From a bacterium (GTDB lineage Bacteria > UBP6 > UBA1177), in NCBI GenBank assembly GCA_017645765.1, contig JAGCNV010000026.1, positions 62,001 to 126,000 on the forward strand: 64,000 bases of DNA, given 5' to 3'. The translations under genes and the position numbers were made by a program. This document shows, piece after piece, positions 15,942 through 43,087 of the stretch (position 1 is its first letter; each line of letters opens with the position of its first letter). The notes beneath the pieces were generated by a model, which saw only the letters and a list, made by a program, of their open reading frames with translations, ran no database searches and had not been told where the DNA came from.

Positions 15942-17636
15942 ATGACAGCAAGGCGCAAAATAGGTGAAATTCTTGTCGAAAAAGGTTTTCTCGACGAGAC
16001 GCAGCTTTCAGAGGCACTTGCCGCGCAGCATGCAGACAGGCAGGGAACGGGCAAAATCGGGCAGTTTCTCGTTTCGGAAGGAAAAGTGACTCCCGAACAG
16101 GTGACTGAGGCTTTTTCGGAGCAGAGCGGAATAAAAATCGTGACGGAAGAAGACCTCAAAAAGCTCGATCCTGCGGTCCTCGGCGAATTTCCGATAGCTC
16201 TGGCGAAGAAATTCAAGGCGCTTCCGCTTTATGCCGACAGTGACCTGCATGTTGTCGTCACAGATATTGACATGCTCCTTTTCAACCAGCTTTTTATGAT
16301 TTACCGTAAAAATGTCGTTTCGCTTCTTGTTTCTACTGCGAAAATCAACGACATGATAAACCAGGCATACAGCAGTGTCGACAACAAGGAAGAATCGCTT
16401 AACGCCGGTGATTTCGACAAAATGGCGGACGAAGACGATACGATCCCTGACCTCATCGACTCAAACGATGATGCCCCGATCATCAAATTCGTCAACAATA
16501 CGATCGCGAAGGCGGTAAAGGAAAAGGCGAGCGATATTCACTTTGAATCTTACGAAGACGAAGTTATCGTCCGCTTCAGAAAAGACGGCAAACTTTCGAT
16601 AGTCCAGCGTGTTCCGAAAGCGGCTCAGGCCGGTCTCATCACAAGAATCAAGATCATGAGCCGACTTAACATTTCGGAAAAAAGGCTTCCTCAGGACGGT
16701 AACATCAAAGTAAAAATCGCGGGAAACGACATCGACTTCCGTGTTTCGACACTTCCGAGTGTCCACGGCGAATCGATAGTTCTCCGTATTTTGGATAAAA
16801 GATCGCAGAAACTTTCTCTTGACGAAAGCGGTTTCACGAAGCGCGACCTCGAAACGATGAGGAAGATAATCCACATGAAACACGGGATTTTCCTCGTCAC
16901 AGGCCCTACCGGAAGCGGTAAAACGACGACGCTTTATTCGGCTCTCACCGAGATAAATTCCCCCGATGTTAAGATAATCACGGTTGAAGACCCTGTCGAG
17001 TATCAGATTAAAGGAGTAAACCAGATCCACATCAATTCGAAGATCGGACTCACTTTCGCGAGCGGTCTCCGTTCGATCCTCCGTCAGGACCCTGACATCA
17101 TCATGGTCGGTGAGATCCGTGATAAGGAGACTGCCGATATCGCGATCAACGCGTCTCTTACCGGTCACTTGGTTTTTTCGACTCTTCACACGAACGACGC
17201 TCCGACGGCTTTCACGCGACTTATCGATATGGGAATCGAGCCTTTCCTAATTTCTTCGACGGTTGTCGGTGTTCTGGCTCAGCGACTTGTCAGGAAGCTA
17301 TGTCCTGCCTGCAAAGAGGCATACTATCCGCCGGCGGCGATACTTGAGGAACTCGGACTCGATCCGAAAGAATATGCGAACCATCCGTTCTACAAGGCTG
17401 TCGGATGTCCTGAATGCGGATATTCCGGTTACAAGGGAAGAAGCGGTATTTTCGAACTTCTGATGATCGACGAAGAGCTCCGCCGTGCCGTAGTTGCGCG
17501 TCAGGACGCAAGCGACATCCGCAAGATAGCGGCGGCAAACGGAATGCTCAACCTCCGCGAAGACGGCGCACTGAAAGCGATAAAAGGGATAACTTCGCCT
17601 GAAGAAGTCCTTCTCAGAACTCAGGAGGATAAATAA
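15942..17636 (+). CDS. gspE: Type II secretion ATPase
   Basis: The cytosolic hexameric ATPase that drives pseudopilus assembly. The N terminus (1-140) is an MshEN/GspE-N domain, a fold that binds c-di-GMP in some relatives. The motor has Walker A GPTGSGKTTTLYSAL, an Asp box, Walker B region ILRQDPDIIMVGEIRD and a His box STLHTNDAPTA. A four-cysteine zinc module, CPAC...CPEC, lies between about residues 450 and 495. Length is 564. The stop overlaps the gspF start by one base (TAATG). Confidence 0.95.
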   Translation: MTARRKIGEILVEKGFLDETQLSEALAAQHADRQGTGKIGQFLVSEGKVTPEQVTEAFSEQSGIKIVTEEDLKKLDPAVLGEFPIALAKKFKALPLYADSDLHVVVTDIDMLLFNQLFMIYRKNVVSLLVSTAKINDMINQAYSSVDNKEESLNAGDFDKMADEDDTIPDLIDSNDDAPIIKFVNNTIAKAVKEKASDIHFESYEDEVIVRFRKDGKLSIVQRVPKAAQAGLITRIKIMSRLNISEKRLPQDGNIKVKIAGNDIDFRVSTLPSVHGESIVLRILDKRSQKLSLDESGFTKRDLETMRKIIHMKHGIFLVTGPTGSGKTTTLYSALTEINSPDVKIITVEDPVEYQIKGVNQIHINSKIGLTFASGLRSILRQDPDIIMVGEIRDKETADIAINASLTGHLVFSTLHTNDAPTAFTRLIDMGIEPFLISSTVVGVLAQRLVRKLCPACKEAYYPPAAILEELGLDPKEYANHPFYKAVGCPECGYSGYKGRSGIFELLMIDEELRRAVVARQDASDIRKIAAANGMLNLREDGALKAIKGITSPEEVLLRTQEDK

Positions 17637-18865
17637 TGCCGCTTTTCGCCTACAAAATTGTCGATGCTAACGGCAAAGAGAAGAAGGGAACGATCGAAAG
17701 TCCCAACAGAGCGGCGGTAAAGACCAAATTCCTTTCGGAAGGCTACTACATCACTGAAATCAGCGAAAAGTCGCAGGCTCAGGGTTTCAGTTTCGATTTT
17801 CTGCGGAAAATGTTCTCTTTCGGCGCGAAAAAAGTGCCTCTTGACGAAGTTGCATCGATGACGCGTCTTCTGGCGACATTGCAGAAGGCAAAGATTCCGC
17901 TTGTAGAAGCGATTGACGCGGTCGCTCAGCAGCAGGAAAATCCGATAATGAAAGATGCCCTCATCATCATCAAGGGCAAGATGAACGAAGGTTACAGCTT
18001 CAGCAAAAGTGCGAGGGAATTTCCTAATATTTTTGATGACTTGTTCTGCAACATGATTGCTGCCGGCGAAGAATCGGGTGCGACGGACAAGGTTCTGATG
18101 AGACTTGCCGGATTCATGGAATCTCAGGTAGACCTCAAAAACAAAGTCAAAAGTGCGATGACTTACCCGATAGTCCTTATGATTGTCGCGGTTTTAGTCG
18201 TCGGCGTTCTCTTTACGGTCGTTATTCCGAAACTTTCCAAAATGTTCGAAGACGTCAAAATGTCGCTGCCAGTCCAGACGAAGATCCTGCTATGGCTTTC
18301 AGGCTTTATCGGAAGCTGGTGGTGGCTCATCGCACTCATGATTTTCGGCGGAGTAGTCGCTTTCAACAAGTATGTCAAAACTCCGAAAGGTGAAATCTGG
18401 TGGAGCAAGGTCAAAATCAACGCTCCGGTTCTCGGCAGAGTCAACAGACAGGTCGCCATCAGCCGTTTCGCGCAGACTTTATCGACACTTCTCCATTCAG
18501 GTGTTCCGATTCTGAACGCACTTGATATTGTTAAGAAAATCATCGACAACAAAATCCTTGAAAACGCGGTCGGAGTAGCCCGCGAAAACATCAAAGAAGG
18601 TGAATCGATCGCGGTTCCGCTCAAAAGAAGCGGCGAGTTCCCGCCCATCGTAATCCAGATGATCGCGATCGGCGAGCAGAGCGGCGAACTTGAGGAAATG
18701 CTTGAAACGCTGGCTAATTCTTATGAAAAGGAAGTCACCTATACGATGGAAAAGCTCACTTCGATGCTTGAACCTATGATGATCGTCGCACTGGCCGGCG
18801 TCATCGGTTTCATCGTTTTTTCGGTCGTCATGCCGATTCTCCAGCTCAACGACGCTGTCGGATAA
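17636..18865 (+). CDS. gspF: Type II secretion platform protein F
   Basis: The polytopic inner-membrane platform protein contacted by GspE. The two duplicated cytosolic T2SSF domains (about 70-190 and 270-395) each precede hydrophobic segments; three membrane helices are predicted near 170-195, 215-240 and 375-400. The N terminus PLFAYKIVDANGKEKKGTIE is typical. The gsp genes stop here: pseudopilins G-K and L-N are not in the window, so the system is split across loci. Hairpin-forming repeats lie just downstream. Confidence 0.95.
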   Translation: MPLFAYKIVDANGKEKKGTIESPNRAAVKTKFLSEGYYITEISEKSQAQGFSFDFLRKMFSFGAKKVPLDEVASMTRLLATLQKAKIPLVEAIDAVAQQQENPIMKDALIIIKGKMNEGYSFSKSAREFPNIFDDLFCNMIAAGEESGATDKVLMRLAGFMESQVDLKNKVKSAMTYPIVLMIVAVLVVGVLFTVVIPKLSKMFEDVKMSLPVQTKILLWLSGFIGSWWWLIALMIFGGVVAFNKYVKTPKGEIWWSKVKINAPVLGRVNRQVAISRFAQTLSTLLHSGVPILNALDIVKKIIDNKILENAVGVARENIKEGESIAVPLKRSGEFPPIVIQMIAIGEQSGELEEMLETLANSYEKEVTYTMEKLTSMLEPMMIVALAGVIGFIVFSVVMPILQLNDAVG

Positions 18866-18873
18866 AATTAATT

Positions 18874-18940
18874 CCCCCGCTAAGTTAGAGGGGGTGTCGC
18901 GGAGCGACAGGGGCGTGTGTCGTATTTATAGACGTGTGCA
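18874..18940 (+). repeat. Left inverted repeat flanking the SUMF1-domain gene
   Basis: This 67-bp element contains two small hairpins: CCCCCGCTAAG paired with TTAGAGGGGG, and GTCGCGGAGCGAC. It ends near GTATTTATAGACGTGTGC. The reverse complement of 21143-21212 matches it along its whole length with about ten to a dozen differences. It lies between the gspF stop and the promoter of the next gene, where it could also terminate gsp transcription. Confidence 0.8.
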
Positions 18941-18941
18941 T

Positions 18942-18969
18942 TTGCAATCTTTTAAATAAAATTTATACT
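18942..18969 (+). promoter_or_regulatory. Promoter of the SUMF1-domain lipoprotein gene
   Basis: TTGCAA (18942-18947), 16-bp spacer, TATACT (18964-18969), followed downstream by GTTTTTTG. It begins immediately inside the left inverted repeat. The ATG is 28 bp downstream. Confidence 0.6.
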
Positions 18970-18996
18970 CTTTTCCTGTTTTTTGCGGAGTCTGAA

Positions 18997-21141
18997 ATGC
19001 CGAAATTTTCCAAAATTATCGCAATTTTTCTGATTGTCCTTCTTGTTTCCTGCTCTTCGTCAAAGTCGCAGAACGATTCCGATATCCTGCCGGATGGTGA
19101 TTACGACAGCAGTTATGCTGAAAATCTTGATGATGATTCTGATGAATACATCGAACCAATTTATCCTGATCCAGTCTGCATCTACATTTATCCCGGTCAG
19201 GAAGATTCAAAACTTTGCTTCGGACCAAAGAAAACCAACGTAAAATGCAACGCAAATCCAAAAGAAAATGAATATGTTACAGTTATTAAAACAGAAAATT
19301 CAATTGGCGATACTGAAGGTTCAATGGATATAAACGATGATTTTGTGTTTTTTGTGTTGAATCCGAAAAGTTCATCTGAATGTTTTAAAGGAAAAACTTA
19401 CTGTCCGAATATTTACGGCTGTAACAGAAAAAACGGATATGTTTATGAGATAGTCTCTTCAAAATTCATCCATCATATATTTGCGGTTGATGGAGACAAA
19501 ATGGTTTTCAATCTTTGGGACAATGTAAAATCTGATACATATAAATCCGATCTGCTTTTAGTTGGAAATCTTAAGACAAATAGGATGACAAGAATCGGAC
19601 AATGGGGACTTTATGAAAGAGTTCAAATGAAATACCCCTATGTCGTTTCTCTAACATCTATGGAATTAACTCATGGTCTGGCTGTATTTAATCTCGAGTC
19701 CAATACCAGGAAAGATATTTCGGAATTATCTTGGTGTGAGAAATTTATTTCGAGTGACGATAAAAACCTTGTCTGCGTAGGCTACTATCTGCCGTATGCT
19801 GCTGATGACAAAATGGTGAATATTAACTCATGGATGGTTGATTTGGAAACCTATGAAGTAACTCCTCTTAGCGTTCAAGCACATGATTCGGAAAATGCTT
19901 ATATCAACGGAGATTATGCATTTATAGGCTCTGGAAGGGACTTGGTTTATTATTCTGATTCTCTTGGTAAACTCAGTGGAATGGAGATATATAGTTTTAA
20001 CATCAAAACCAAGCGTGAAGAAAAATGGACCCCTGAAATCAAGGGGATTTTTGAAGGCAATTTTACAATGCCGAGTTTTGAATACCCTTATTTCAGTTAT
20101 TTAGCCAATGAAACAGAACAGACTTCAACTGGAGCTAGCTATGTTTTGAATATCGAAACAGGCAAAGTTACCAAATTTTGGGGCAGAACCAGCGACTGGT
20201 CTATTATAAAAAATAGATACATATTAGAAAACGGTGATTTCCCTGACAAACTTGCCAAACTCCCTGACTTACCGAAACTGCCTGAAAATGCAGACGAGCT
20301 TTGTGAAGATGATAATCCGTGTACAGACAACAGATATTTTGTGACAGACGGAGAATGTCACTTCATACCGAATCACGAAAGATGTGACGATGGCGACGAC
20401 ACAACTCTTTTTGATGTTTGTATTGATGGCGAATGCAAAGGCTTTGCAGGAACAAGCAGTGATGAAGAAATGGTCACAGTTGAAGCTGGAAAATTCTTTT
20501 ATGACGGCAAAGAATATGAAATCAAAAAGCCGTTTAAAATGGATGTCTTTGAAGTGACGAACGGCAAATATGCCCAGTGCGTTGAAGCAAAAGCATGTGT
20601 TGAGCCTCTGAGAAAAAGGTCTTTAACAGTCCTGAATTATTACGACAATCCATTCTATGAGAACTTTCCTGTTCTTTATGTCAATCAGTTTGAAGCACAG
20701 AACTACTGCAACTGGCTCGGCAAAAGACTTCCGACAGAGTTCGAGTGGATGAAAGCGACTTGGGATGGAGAAGAAAAAACTTATCTTTGGGGAGAGGAAA
20801 AACCTGATTCCTCGACTTATCCGGACAGTTATTATGCAAATGTAGGTTTTGGTTATCCCGGATTTGTAGGGTGGAATGTGGTTGAAGTCGGTACATTTCC
20901 AAAAGATAAAACCATTGATGGGATCATGGATATGTCCGGCAATGTGAGCGAGTGGACAACAAGCGAATGGATTCCGCAACTCTGCGATACACCACCATGC
21001 CATGGAGATTTTGGGAGAGATATTGTTGTTGCTAAAGGCGGAGGTTATTTAAGTGGAGCTGAATTGAAAACGAGATATTACAGCACTCCGTGGACGCATT
21101 CGTTTTTTGTCGGGTTTAGATGTGTAAAAGATATTGAATAA
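18997..21141 (+). CDS. Lipoprotein with C-terminal formylglycine-generating-enzyme-like (SUMF1) domain
   Basis: The ATG at 18997 has a GCGGAG site, and an in-frame GTG at 18934 is rejected because it precedes the promoter. Residues 1-19 are a lipoprotein signal ending VLLVSC. An acidic Asp/Ser linker with NDSDILPDGD follows, then a roughly 400-residue region whose repeated W/Y/F-rich strands suggest a beta-propeller, and a short cysteine-rich link (about 440-485). Residues 489-714 are the SUMF1/FGE fold (VEAGKFFYDG, NYCNWLGKRLPTEFEW, SGNVSEWT, GGGYLSG, GFRCVKD). The two catalytic cysteines of true FGE are not evident, so a binding role is more likely than catalysis. By eye it is more AT-rich than the gsp genes. 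Inverted repeats flank it. Confidence 0.85.
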   Translation: MPKFSKIIAIFLIVLLVSCSSSKSQNDSDILPDGDYDSSYAENLDDDSDEYIEPIYPDPVCIYIYPGQEDSKLCFGPKKTNVKCNANPKENEYVTVIKTENSIGDTEGSMDINDDFVFFVLNPKSSSECFKGKTYCPNIYGCNRKNGYVYEIVSSKFIHHIFAVDGDKMVFNLWDNVKSDTYKSDLLLVGNLKTNRMTRIGQWGLYERVQMKYPYVVSLTSMELTHGLAVFNLESNTRKDISELSWCEKFISSDDKNLVCVGYYLPYAADDKMVNINSWMVDLETYEVTPLSVQAHDSENAYINGDYAFIGSGRDLVYYSDSLGKLSGMEIYSFNIKTKREEKWTPEIKGIFEGNFTMPSFEYPYFSYLANETEQTSTGASYVLNIETGKVTKFWGRTSDWSIIKNRYILENGDFPDKLAKLPDLPKLPENADELCEDDNPCTDNRYFVTDGECHFIPNHERCDDGDDTTLFDVCIDGECKGFAGTSSDEEMVTVEAGKFFYDGKEYEIKKPFKMDVFEVTNGKYAQCVEAKACVEPLRKRSLTVLNYYDNPFYENFPVLYVNQFEAQNYCNWLGKRLPTEFEWMKATWDGEEKTYLWGEEKPDSSTYPDSYYANVGFGYPGFVGWNVVEVGTFPKDKTIDGIMDMSGNVSEWTTSEWIPQLCDTPPCHGDFGRDIVVAKGGGYLSGAELKTRYYSTPWTHSFFVGFRCVKDIE

Positions 21142-21142
21142 A

Positions 21143-21212
21143 TGCAGCACACGCCCATAAATACAACATACGCCCTCGGCGCTTCGCGCCACTCCCGCTA
21201 ACTTAGCGGGAG
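21143..21212 (-). repeat. Right inverted repeat flanking the SUMF1-domain gene
   Basis: An inverted copy of the element at 18874-18940. Its hairpins are GGCGCTTCGCGCC (21178-21190) and CCCGCTAACTTAGCGGG (21194-21210). It begins 1 bp after the stop codon, so it may serve as the gene's transcription terminator. Confidence 0.8.
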
Positions 21213-21218
21213 AGTTTA

Positions 21219-21242
21219 AGACGTGTCAGGTCACGTCTCTAC
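21219..21242 (+). repeat. Palindromic GTAGAGAC-type repeat, copy 1
   Basis: AGACGTG and CACGTCT arms flank TCAGGT, and CTAC follows. It belongs to the same family as 26106-26132. Confidence 0.7.
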
Positions 21243-21332: not shown

Positions 21333-21788
21333 ATGGACAGAATAAAATCGGTCGCAAAAAATAAAAAGGCTTTCAGAGCTTACGAAATTCTTGATAAACT
21401 CGAAGCGGGGATCGTTCTTCAGGGGACTGAGATAAAGTCGATCAGAGACGGCAATGTTTCGTTCAGAGACAGTTTTATCGACATCATAAACGGCGAAATG
21501 TGGCTCGTAGGTTTCTACATCGCGCCCTACAATGCAGGAAGTATCTGGAATCACGCTTCAGACAGGCGCAGAAAACTGCTTCTCAACAAGCGCGAGATCA
21601 GAAAATGGGACGCAAAAGTGCGTGAAAAAGGGTTCACGGTCGTGCCGATAGAGCTTTATTTCAAAAACGGCAGGGCGAAAATGGAGATCGGACTTGCACG
21701 CGGAAAGACATCATTTGACAGAAAGGACGACCTGAAGGAAAAAGATATTAAGAAAGATAACGAAAGATTTACCGAGAAATATAAATGA
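21333..21788 (+). CDS. smpB: SsrA-binding protein
   Basis: Binds tmRNA and brings it to stalled ribosomes for trans-translation. The 151 residues show AYEILDKLEAGIVLQGTEIKSIRDG, the KLLLNKREI core and the lysine-rich disordered tail (KEKDIKKDNERFTEKYK) that inserts into the mRNA channel. No tmRNA gene was found nearby. The stop overlaps the yraN start by 4 bp. Confidence 0.95.
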   Translation: MDRIKSVAKNKKAFRAYEILDKLEAGIVLQGTEIKSIRDGNVSFRDSFIDIINGEMWLVGFYIAPYNAGSIWNHASDRRRKLLLNKREIRKWDAKVREKGFTVVPIELYFKNGRAKMEIGLARGKTSFDRKDDLKEKDIKKDNERFTEKYK

Positions 21789-40280: not shown

Positions 40281-40310
40281 TCTGAAACAAGTTCTAAAAT
40301 TACATCTCAG

Positions 40311-40353
40311 CGTCGCAGTGAACTTTCCTGTGCGGCGTTCCGTTTTTGTTTTT
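40311..40353 (+). terminator. Intrinsic terminator of pta
   Basis: CGTCGCA (40311-40317) pairs with TGCGGCG (40331-40337), including one G-U, and a T-rich run (TTCCGTTTTTGTTTTT) follows. It lies between convergent pta and the WG-repeat gene. Confidence 0.55.
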
Positions 40354-40363
40354 GGGAGTTTTT

Positions 40364-43087
40364 CTATAAAATAAAATTTCCTGTTTTGTCAATCAATATT
40401 ATGTATCCATTGGAATCTCGAACACGAGCTAAGCCTTCGCTAAAGTCTTCCGCCCAATTCCACTGGCAAGGAATAACCAAACGACCAGTTTTATCGATAT
40501 ATCCAAATTTCCAATTGGAATCTCGAACACGAGCTAAGCCTTCGCTAAAGCCTTCCGCCCAATTCCACTGGCAAGGAATAACCAAACGACCAGTTTTATC
40601 AATATATCCATAATTTCCATTGGAATCTTGAACACGAGCTAAGCCTTCGCTAAAGCTTTCCGCACTATTCCACTGACAAGGGATAACCAAACTACCAGTT
40701 TTATCAATATACCCATGTTTTCCATTGGAATCTCGAACAAGAGTTAAGCCTTCGCTAGAGTAACAATAGTAAGGAGTAAAGGGAACCAAACGACCAGTTT
40801 TATCGATATAACCACTTTCAACTTCCGCTAAGCCTTCGTGAAAGTTCCGAGCTTCTTTCCACTGACAAGGGATAACCAAACGACCAGTTTTATCAATATA
40901 CCCATATTTTCCATTGAAATCTTTAATAACCGCTAAACCTTCGCTGAAATTATGATAACAAACAACGTTCTCCCATTTGCAAGGAATAACCAAACGACCA
41001 GTTTTATCAATATACCCATGTTTTCCATTGGAATCTCGAACACGAGCCAAACCTTCACTAAATTCATCGGCCCATTTCCACTGCTGGCAAGGAATAACCA
41101 AACGACCAGTTTTATCAATATAACCATATCCATTGAAATCTGCAACACGAGCTAAGCCTTCGCTAAAGCCTTCCGCCCAATTCCACTGGCAAGGGATAAC
41201 CAAACGACCAGTTTTATCAATGAAACCAGATCTCACATTGGAATCTGTAACAGCCGCTAAGCCTTCGCTAAAGCCTTTCGCACTAATCCACTGACAAGGG
41301 ATAACCGCTTGATTTGTCCAATCAATATAACCCCATTTTCCATTGGAATCTTGAACAGACGCCAAACCTTCTTTAAAATGGAAGAATTTGTTGTTCCAAC
41401 GATAGGAGATCACAGCACTTTCGTTATATGTGTAACCATATTTTCCAGAAGACTGCTTGCCATCAATAAATTTATCATTCAGTATGGACTTTCTAAAATC
41501 TTCGAGATCTTGTTTAAAAATCTTGATCTTGCAATAAAGACTGTATAGTCTGTTCTTGGGTAAATTACCTTTATTATCCAGTGTGTTTTTTACCTCGGAC
41601 AGTTCTGCAAAGATCTTGTTGTAAGTCTCAGGATAATTCTTGATTGATTCCAATTCTTTTAAAATTTGAACTTCTTCAACGATTATTTTCAAATCATGAT
41701 TGTGTAGTGCTTTCAGTTCATCCAGATTGCGTAAAGCATCAACAACGGCTATTGAGTTTTCTTTGTTTTTTGCTTTTAATGTTTGCAGTTTTTTGTTAAA
41801 TAAATCATATTTTGTGCGGTAAAAACCTATAGATGCCCAATCTTTTTCAAGAGTTGCCAGAAGTAGAGAGCTTTCTTTTATAACTTCTTTCTTGTAATCT
41901 TGAATATATTGTAAGATGTGAGAGTTACTCAGGAGATCGTAATCCTCAAGCACCTGCATAACAATATATGGATTTACCTGCATTAACTGTTTCAGTATTT
42001 CTACAGCCTGCTTTTTAGTGCCTTCATCTGTTGAAGCAGAAAGATATTTCATTGCACGCAATGCCGCTTTGTTGTTTACTGGAATCAGTTCTTCTATAAT
42101 CTGATAAGCATGATTTGTATCTTGCATCAAATAGCAGCATTCGGCCTTCATCATCAGTGCTTCGTCAAAAAGATTATGTCTTTGAGGCAGAGCCTCGGCA
42201 TAATGCATATATCGGTCAAAAGCATACCATGCTTCGTCTAAATTCAAATGATTTTTCGAATATAGATGAATCATTCCAATATAATACCAGGAGAAGAAGT
42301 CTTTTCGCTCAATGGAGGTCGCTTTGGTAAATTCATCGAGAGCGTCGTCGAAATAGAGACAGTCGCCTGACTGCATTCCTTTGTTGAAATATTTCATTCC
42401 TTCTTCAATATGATAACGCCGTTCCCGCTGCGATTCCGGAATTCTTAATTCGTCAAGAATAAGCTGCATCGTTCCATGTATTGTTTGCAGTGAGAATATT
42501 ATTGCTGTTGCAGCCTGAGCAATGTTGGAGCTTAAAGCTGCCATTCCTGCCATCATATTTTCGTTAATGGCACCCATTCCTGCCATCATATTCTGGTTCA
42601 TGGCGTTTATTCCGGCAGTCATTGCGCCGATTCCGCGATTTATCTGAGAAAGACCGTAATTAGTCCTGGCTATACCTCTGTCAATCCCTGTAAGAATCTC
42701 GTTGCCCTGCTGCATAGTCTGGTTTACCGAATTTATTCCCTGGCCGATAGCCCCTAAATTGCTGTTGATTTCAACCATTCGGTTGTTCATCAGCGAAAAA
42801 CCGTCATCAAGTGACGATGAGATAAGTGAAGCTGCCGACTGTATTTTTTGTCCGACCAGATTACCTGCCGACTGGATGCTGGCGTGAGTGACAGCTGCAT
42901 GGACTCCGATGTCGTGGCGGATGCCTTCAGCCTGAAAAAATGAGAGCTTCTGAAGAAAAGCCGGATCATCGACTTTGTCCGTGAAAAGATTGGCGTAAAG
43001 ATCTCTTGTCAGCCACTGTTTGTAGGAATCCAACACAGGTTGGTGTTCATACTCATATTTGTATTGTTGTATGGAAAAACTGTTCAT
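40364..43087 (-). CDS. WG-repeat protein with coiled-coil and TPR-like region
   Basis: A 907-residue protein, apparently cytosolic because no signal peptide is seen. Residues 1-200 are helical with short self-similar units (GAMTAGINAMNQNMMAG, GAINENMMAG), probably a coiled coil. Residues 220-420 have TPR-like helix pairs (EEGMKYFNKGMQSGD, WYYIGMIHLYSKNH); 420-550 is charged and helical. From about 560 there are ten WG-type repeats of 35 residues, with the form GYIDKTGRLVIPCQW plus FSEGLARV. Their DNA is a 105-bp tandem repeat, in places almost identical. The gene is more AT-rich by eye than its neighbours. Function is unknown; WG repeats are thought to mediate protein binding. Confidence 0.8.
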   Translation of the reverse strand: MNSFSIQQYKYEYEHQPVLDSYKQWLTRDLYANLFTDKVDDPAFLQKLSFFQAEGIRHDIGVHAAVTHASIQSAGNLVGQKIQSAASLISSSLDDGFSLMNNRMVEINSNLGAIGQGINSVNQTMQQGNEILTGIDRGIARTNYGLSQINRGIGAMTAGINAMNQNMMAGMGAINENMMAGMAALSSNIAQAATAIIFSLQTIHGTMQLILDELRIPESQRERRYHIEEGMKYFNKGMQSGDCLYFDDALDEFTKATSIERKDFFSWYYIGMIHLYSKNHLNLDEAWYAFDRYMHYAEALPQRHNLFDEALMMKAECCYLMQDTNHAYQIIEELIPVNNKAALRAMKYLSASTDEGTKKQAVEILKQLMQVNPYIVMQVLEDYDLLSNSHILQYIQDYKKEVIKESSLLLATLEKDWASIGFYRTKYDLFNKKLQTLKAKNKENSIAVVDALRNLDELKALHNHDLKIIVEEVQILKELESIKNYPETYNKIFAELSEVKNTLDNKGNLPKNRLYSLYCKIKIFKQDLEDFRKSILNDKFIDGKQSSGKYGYTYNESAVISYRWNNKFFHFKEGLASVQDSNGKWGYIDWTNQAVIPCQWISAKGFSEGLAAVTDSNVRSGFIDKTGRLVIPCQWNWAEGFSEGLARVADFNGYGYIDKTGRLVIPCQQWKWADEFSEGLARVRDSNGKHGYIDKTGRLVIPCKWENVVCYHNFSEGLAVIKDFNGKYGYIDKTGRLVIPCQWKEARNFHEGLAEVESGYIDKTGRLVPFTPYYCYSSEGLTLVRDSNGKHGYIDKTGSLVIPCQWNSAESFSEGLARVQDSNGNYGYIDKTGRLVIPCQWNWAEGFSEGLARVRDSNWKFGYIDKTGRLVIPCQWNWAEDFSEGLARVRDSNGYIILIDKTGNFIL
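40404..41340 (-). repeat. Tandem 105-bp repeats encoding the WG units
   Basis: The phrase TTGGAATCTCGAACACGAGC recurs with exact 105-bp steps at about 40410, 40515, 40620 and 40725, then in more diverged units with occasional short insertions. The units at 40410-40619 differ at only a few bases. One unit near 40745-40830 is degenerate. Confidence 0.9.

Follow-up and report, generated by a model that had tools for sequence, protein, structure and literature searches.

A surface-lipoprotein gene between inverted double-hairpin elements: a probable non-autonomous mobile cassette in a rumen bacterial genus

Introduction

Mobile insertion cassettes (MICs) carry a passenger gene between inverted ends and have no internal transposase; the known ones have plain IS-type ends, depend on a DDE transposase for movement and generate target duplications. 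Integron cassettes are single genes with a foldable hairpin site (attC) next to the stop codon, a site that is one-sided and requires IntI. Cargo flanked by pairs of MITEs has also been described (PMC10969869, in the portion drawn on here). Among dispersed palindromic repeats, the REP elements and BIMEs of the GTAG and CGTC families are short palindromes with variable stems that form inverted dimers and prefer intergenic sites but also have intragenic copies, and Rickettsia palindromic elements (RPEs) lie in-frame within protein genes (PMC3733652). The CGTC REPs have no dedicated transposase, and their mobiliser was left open in those sections of this 2013 survey on which we rely (PMC3733652).

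Here we analyse a unit found in a 64-kb stretch of bacterial DNA, referred to below as the window. Like MICs and cargo MITE pairs, it has inverted terminal repeats around a passenger gene, no internal transposase, and a pattern of presence and absence among relatives; unlike MICs, it has double-hairpin ends, and we found no target-site duplication. We know of no IS relative of these ends. The element that forms them resembles REPs and BIMEs in all the respects listed above, but it consists of two hairpins and a mirror-symmetric third segment, occurs around DUF559 rather than RAYT genes, and forms cargo cassettes. With RPEs it shares its in-frame copies, while sequence and host differ, and no RPEs that bracket cargo genes are known to us. 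In contrast to the one-sided attC, inverted copies stand on both sides of the gene, which argues against an integron cassette.

Results

An inverted pair of double-hairpin elements around one gene

The top inverted repeat of the window consists of two 70-nt arms, 81% complementary and separated by 2207 nt (Table 1); just one other inverted repeat is as long (I2, 77%), and it falls inside gspE and a second gspE-like gene. For the two intergenic gaps, the local inverted-repeat score is 41.4, while 1000 shuffles never exceeded 13.1, and single-strand folding of the two arms gives z = -2.7 and -3.2. Elsewhere in the window, a 105-base direct-repeat array occupies 40299-41377 in a minus-strand coding region (repeat protein).

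Read from outside to inside, the element comprises AATTC, hairpin 1 (loop CTAAGTTAG), TG, hairpin 2, a purine segment and GTGTGT. Stem sequences of both hairpins vary between copies, with pairing kept. Inward of GTGTGT, both window copies add a second tail repeat (GTATTTATGGGCGTGTG...), and this extended or 'doubled' tail is typical of cassette ends. The third hairpin beside the right copy stands in the same register as in a copy in G002, and its sequence is also found alone about 19 times in the window genome. Rfam returned no family match for the element, its single hit being at chance level and far below the gathering score.

Table 1. The cassette and its borders, in window coordinates
Feature	Position	Strand	Remarks
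gspF	17636..18865	+	left border of insertion
Left double-hairpin element	18870..18939	+	hairpin 1, 18874-18894; hairpin 2, 18895-18909; third segment and GTGTGT from 18910
Extended ('doubled') tail, left copy	18921..18953	+	score 15, above all shuffles (max 13)
Promoter-like site of cargo gene	18941..18969	+	only such site between the arms
Cargo gene, 714-aa lipoprotein	18997..21141	+	SCSSSKSQNDSD lipobox region; C-terminal FGE-sulfatase/SUMF1 domain
Extended tail, right copy	21142..21177	-	score 23; adjoins stop codon
Right double-hairpin element	21147..21216	-	hairpin 2, 21178-21190; hairpin 1, 21192-21212; inverted relative to left copy
Third hairpin (AGACGTG TCAGGT CACGTCT)	21219..21238	.	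adjoins right copy
smpB	21333..21788	+	right border; directly 3' of gspF in G001, G005 and G014

The encoded protein has a lipoprotein signal peptide and matches PF03781 (E 3e-36). Its gene is AT-rich, with GC and GC3 of 0.385 and 0.345 compared with 0.43-0.49 and 0.45-0.60 in its neighbours, and the extended tail of the right copy begins 1-2 bases after the stop codon (21139-21141). An earlier, sequence-only reading of this DNA had described long inverted repeats with the same two hairpins, enclosing exactly one promoter and one gene that looked more AT-rich than its neighbours, with the right copy 1 bp after the stop. Each of these points was borne out, and the element proved to extend beyond the bounds then given, with its tail reaching to about 18953 and the third hairpin added at the right copy.

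Distribution and orientation of element copies

The window genome (G000; 2.65 Mb in 109 contigs, 99% complete) has rumen and gut MAGs as its nearest named relatives. With the left copy as BLAST query, the element gave 59 matches in 14 of the 15 genomes of the genus and none in the four other genomes of the family. A profile search then found 84 copies, a lower bound because the profile was applied only to regions fetched after BLAST with the window copy. Since MAG contigs often break at elements, some pairs will have remained unseen.

Many copies are singles or short tail-to-tail dimers that enclose no gene; the short dimers resemble BIMEs. Neighbouring copies at most 260 bases apart were tail-to-tail in 20 cases and head-to-head in 3; among the 11 pairs spaced by 261-7000 bases, 7 were tail-to-tail, 4 lay on the same strand and none was head-to-head. 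Three of the four same-strand pairs represent one locus in three genomes (L168, G000:C78:50576-51407; G012 C18; G013 C46), where the elements are 770 bases apart and enclose a small gene pair, DUF4160 and DUF2442 by our reading, after a pyruvate:ferredoxin oxidoreductase-like gene. These pairs were counted separately from the cassettes.

Some copies fall within reading frames, including a pseudopilin gene in two genomes. A tail-to-tail dimer lies in-frame in a large restriction-modification-like protein of four genomes (L067, L137, L140 and L150; this name and pseudopilin are our reading), and a further copy lies within a Vsr-like reading frame (L156, G011:C48:90648).

Filled and empty sites

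At four sites, an element, one or more lipoprotein genes and an inverted element stand in some genomes where relatives have the joined, empty site (the names mpl, uppP, aroA, lon and panD below are our reading of translations). Downstream of gspF, which is present in 14 of the 15 genomes, we found smpB in three (G001, G005 and G014), the cassette in G000, a truncated element in G013 and other genes in nine. The mpl-uppP site is joined in 7 of the 15, carries a cassette in two (G011 and G001) and is otherwise arranged in six. The site upstream of aroA, found in 13 of the 15, holds a cassette in G014 and G002, has the same neighbour and is empty in G005 and G006, and has other neighbours in nine. 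Finally, lon is present in all 15 genomes and is followed by a cassette in G005, by panD as neighbour without a cassette in G014, and by other arrangements in 13.

A half-filled site, holding the gene and a single element, was encountered at none of the four loci. Inspection by eye revealed no convincing target-site duplication at any of them; the RBS-like AGAGGT/GGAGGC flanking the mpl-uppP cassette was considered and set aside as too weak. Beside the aroA-site cassette, a stretch of about 45 bp known from the empty site has been lost. In G013, the truncated element after gspF (L066) keeps the register of the left copy of the window but precedes a gmd-like gene in place of the lipoprotein gene, which makes it possible that the left end predates its cargo.

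Shared ends around varied cargo

The seven long tail-to-tail pairs (261-7000 bp) comprise six that enclose one or two surface-protein genes (in the window, at two sites in G005, and in G011, G014 and G002) and a seventh, made of window-type elements around a small DUF559 gene, which sits right beside the lipoprotein cassette of G011. Most of the cargo has the same lipobox region (CSSSK/HS..NDSD), and its domains vary between SUMF1, LRR, Lcl_C, reprolysin-like and no Pfam match. The junction from stop codon to tail is homologous in G000, G014/G002 and G011/G001, that is, at three sites with unrelated outer flanks, and on the 5' side the stretch between element tail and start codon is likewise homologous between the window and the aroA-site cassette of G014 and G002. 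Doubled tails scoring at least 12 occur in 11 of the 84 copies, nine of which face cargo genes and two of which face contig ends in G014.

Full-length homologues of the window lipoprotein gave 13 matches, some interrupted by contig ends, in 8 of the 15 genomes, the window's own included. Elsewhere they lie mostly in arrays with different promoters and spacers, with an element nearby (one copy) at only 1 of 14 named homologue loci, which suggests that this superfamily also spreads, or has spread, without such ends. We therefore rejected a tie between the element and this one lipoprotein family, as homologues are mostly element-free and other cargo has the same ends. In G013, contig ends truncate three paralogues of the window lipoprotein (L177, L179 and L180), two of them at about the same residue (501-504), suggesting near-identical 3' parts that disrupted assembly.

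These comparisons bear on the strongest alternative to a cassette, namely that the lipoprotein gene was acquired horizontally by other means, through homologous recombination at a variable site downstream of gspF, and was flanked by two independent REP/MITE-like insertions. The abundance of singles and gene-free dimers, the element-free sites of many genes of the same family, the G013 remnant that lacks the gene and the variability of the region downstream of gspF across the genus would all suit such a history. It accounts poorly, however, for the tail-to-tail arrangement of all seven long pairs that are not same-strand, for a homologous stop-to-element junction at three unrelated sites, for the restriction of doubled tails to copies that face cargo or contig ends, and for the lack of half-filled sites at the four loci, and we judge it unlikely, at perhaps one chance in four.

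The sequence-only reading had suggested looking both for genomes with gspF joined directly to smpB, now found in three relatives, and for inverted pairs that repeatedly flank single lipoprotein genes; six of the seven long tail-to-tail pairs enclose one or two surface-protein genes, but the many singles and gene-free dimers limit this picture. It had also named what would speak against a cassette: elements mostly alone or randomly oriented between unrelated genes, and no presence/absence of the gene. Neither was observed: orientation of the long pairs is not random (7 of 11 tail-to-tail) and gene presence/absence is seen, even if the lipoprotein homologues are mostly without elements.

Terminators as an alternative

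That reading had offered two options, a transposase-free mobile cassette and, as the plainer explanation, paired terminators formed by a REP-type repeat; the filled and empty sites and pair orientation support the first, and the second found no support. In its fuller form, the latter would have non-mobile REP-formed elements act as bidirectional terminators or mRNA-stabilising hairpins that insulate the lipoprotein gene. Strong hairpins do stand immediately after stop codons, and on the minus strand the left copy is a terminator-like match and part of the right copy another. On the plus strand, however, no terminator-like match follows gspF or the lipoprotein gene, a GC stem with a T-run being absent at both places, and we rejected an intrinsic terminator pair. 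Element copies within the reading frames of other genes, and the way in which presence or absence of the elements tracks the gene at four sites, likewise make insulation an improbable account.

Stem exchange and a mirror rule

At two sites, orthologous elements differ between two genomes by an exchange of stems, each still paired, within identical surroundings (the left ends of L121 and L122; the right ends of L120 and L138), a pattern suggestive of compensatory turnover or of conversion from one copy to another. The segment that follows hairpin 2 mirrors the 3' arm of hairpin 1, with C replaced by T and sometimes A by T (L119-L168). The middle base agrees in 63 of the 64 loci that were parsed, and where the arm has C the segment has T in 17 of 17 cases. 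Mirror identity averages 5.28 of 7 in 46 distinct copies, compared with at most 4.74 for re-dealt segments, and 5.94 compared with at most 5.82 in 17 copies at DUF559 loci of the genus; in nine copies at plasmid DUF559 loci it is 3.67, not significant against a re-dealt maximum of 3.78. Because the copies share descent, the rule is suggestive only. We take the C-to-T and A-to-T pattern to fit purine-motif triplex rules.

DUF559 genes between inverted hairpins

DUF559 (PF04480) gave 16 matches, spread over 11 of the 15 genus genomes; the window's own genome (99% complete) has none. All nine small genes tested lie between inverted repeats, with scores of 16.3-66.2, whereas the maximum among 184 control ORFs of the genus is 15.8; the other seven matches comprise five short ones in larger frames or proteins, one contig-edge fragment and one left unscored (L240). 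Most of these repeats follow the same two-hairpin plan with different stem sequences, as sister subtypes, and window-type elements surround DUF559 in G011 only.

Beyond the genus, we examined 25 of 34 plasmid DUF559 records from Deinococcus, cyanobacteria and alphaproteobacteria, chosen for spread rather than at random. Ten of the 25 score at least 19.6, compared with none of 122 control ORFs drawn from three of those plasmids (none of 306 control ORFs overall); the other 15 fall below that value, two of them with one-sided double hairpins (L252 and L254). The two-hairpin plan recurs at a Novosphingobium locus (L265), and both of two phage scaffolds with DUF559 carry such hairpins, as a clear inverted double-hairpin pair in one (30.7) and as a double hairpin next to the gene in the other. 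In the hpa cluster of three Deinococcus species, DUF559 genes occupy three different junctions; others stand in a paa cluster, and in Sphingomonas between sufB and sufC and in a transhydrogenase cluster, the inverted-repeat test failing at both Sphingomonas loci. Such placement between operon genes is as would be expected of a mobile single gene.

The nearest solved structure by sequence is 3hrl, an 'Endonuclease-Like Protein', and a DUF559 protein is called Vsr-like in the part of PMC12907096 that concerns us. The open PMC literature yielded nothing that links DUF559 to 'inverted repeat', and DUF559 with 'palindromic' led only to papers that are unrelated by title and abstract.

A RAYT (IS200/IS605-type) transposase that moved a REP/BIME element and trapped the gene is a very improbable source of the unit, for although its architecture resembles REP dimers, which can hold inserted DNA between partners (PMC3733652, in the sections used), PF01797 is absent from the window's own genome and occurs in one of the 15 genus genomes, compared with 5 of 14 control genomes, and the copies read have no GTAG tag of RAYT-linked REPs at the element end; with RAYT almost absent from the genus, we rejected this system.

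Discussion

We observed the paired ends and their orientation, filled and empty sites in related species, conserved junctions between end and gene at different sites, and varied cargo between like ends. The inverted pair is genuine and includes the enclosed gene, and the unit has the behaviour of a mobile cassette that lacks an enzyme of its own; its mobility is well supported. The unit is best read as a non-autonomous, cargo-carrying relative of a DUF559-associated hairpin element. Our favoured interpretation, which we hold to be probable if far from certain, is that the window contains one filled copy of such a cassette and that the nuclease acting in trans was most likely of the DUF559 type.

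Based on these comparisons we can present a rough proposal for how the unit works. At either end it has a REP-like double-hairpin element, the two copies inverted with their tails inward, around a promoter and a surface-lipoprotein gene, and the whole may enter and leave intergenic gaps as one piece. The ends might function in folded form, as single strands or as a cruciform, and be recognised by a nuclease provided in trans. The most likely candidate for that enzyme would be the small DUF559 (PF04480) endonuclease, Vsr-like and of the PD-(D/E)XK type, because DUF559 genes are themselves enclosed by inverted hairpin elements of this kind. This link is an association measured against controls rather than a demonstrated mechanism, and we infer from it that DUF559 moves the unit. 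Since no DUF559 gene was found in the window genome, the copy in the window is probably no longer mobile.

A broader reading, which we put forward tentatively as possible but short of an even chance, joins these observations. DUF559 genes would then mark undescribed, widespread, tiny mobile elements, each with one PD-(D/E)XK gene between inverted hairpin elements, whose ends would fold single-stranded into a hairpin capped by a mirror-symmetric, triplex-like third strand. Their non-autonomous copies would be the dispersed hairpin repeats seen in gut bacteria, alphaproteobacteria, cyanobacteria and Deinococcus, and in this rumen genus the ends would have captured lipoprotein genes, making surface-lipoprotein genes exchangeable cassettes.

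A cassette of this kind would explain how surface-lipoprotein genes are shuffled in rumen bacteria without an adjacent transposase, and it makes DUF559 a testable candidate enzyme for palindromic repeats lacking a recognised mobiliser. Furthermore, the exchange of surface proteins via such cassettes would bear on adhesion, phage receptors and grazing.
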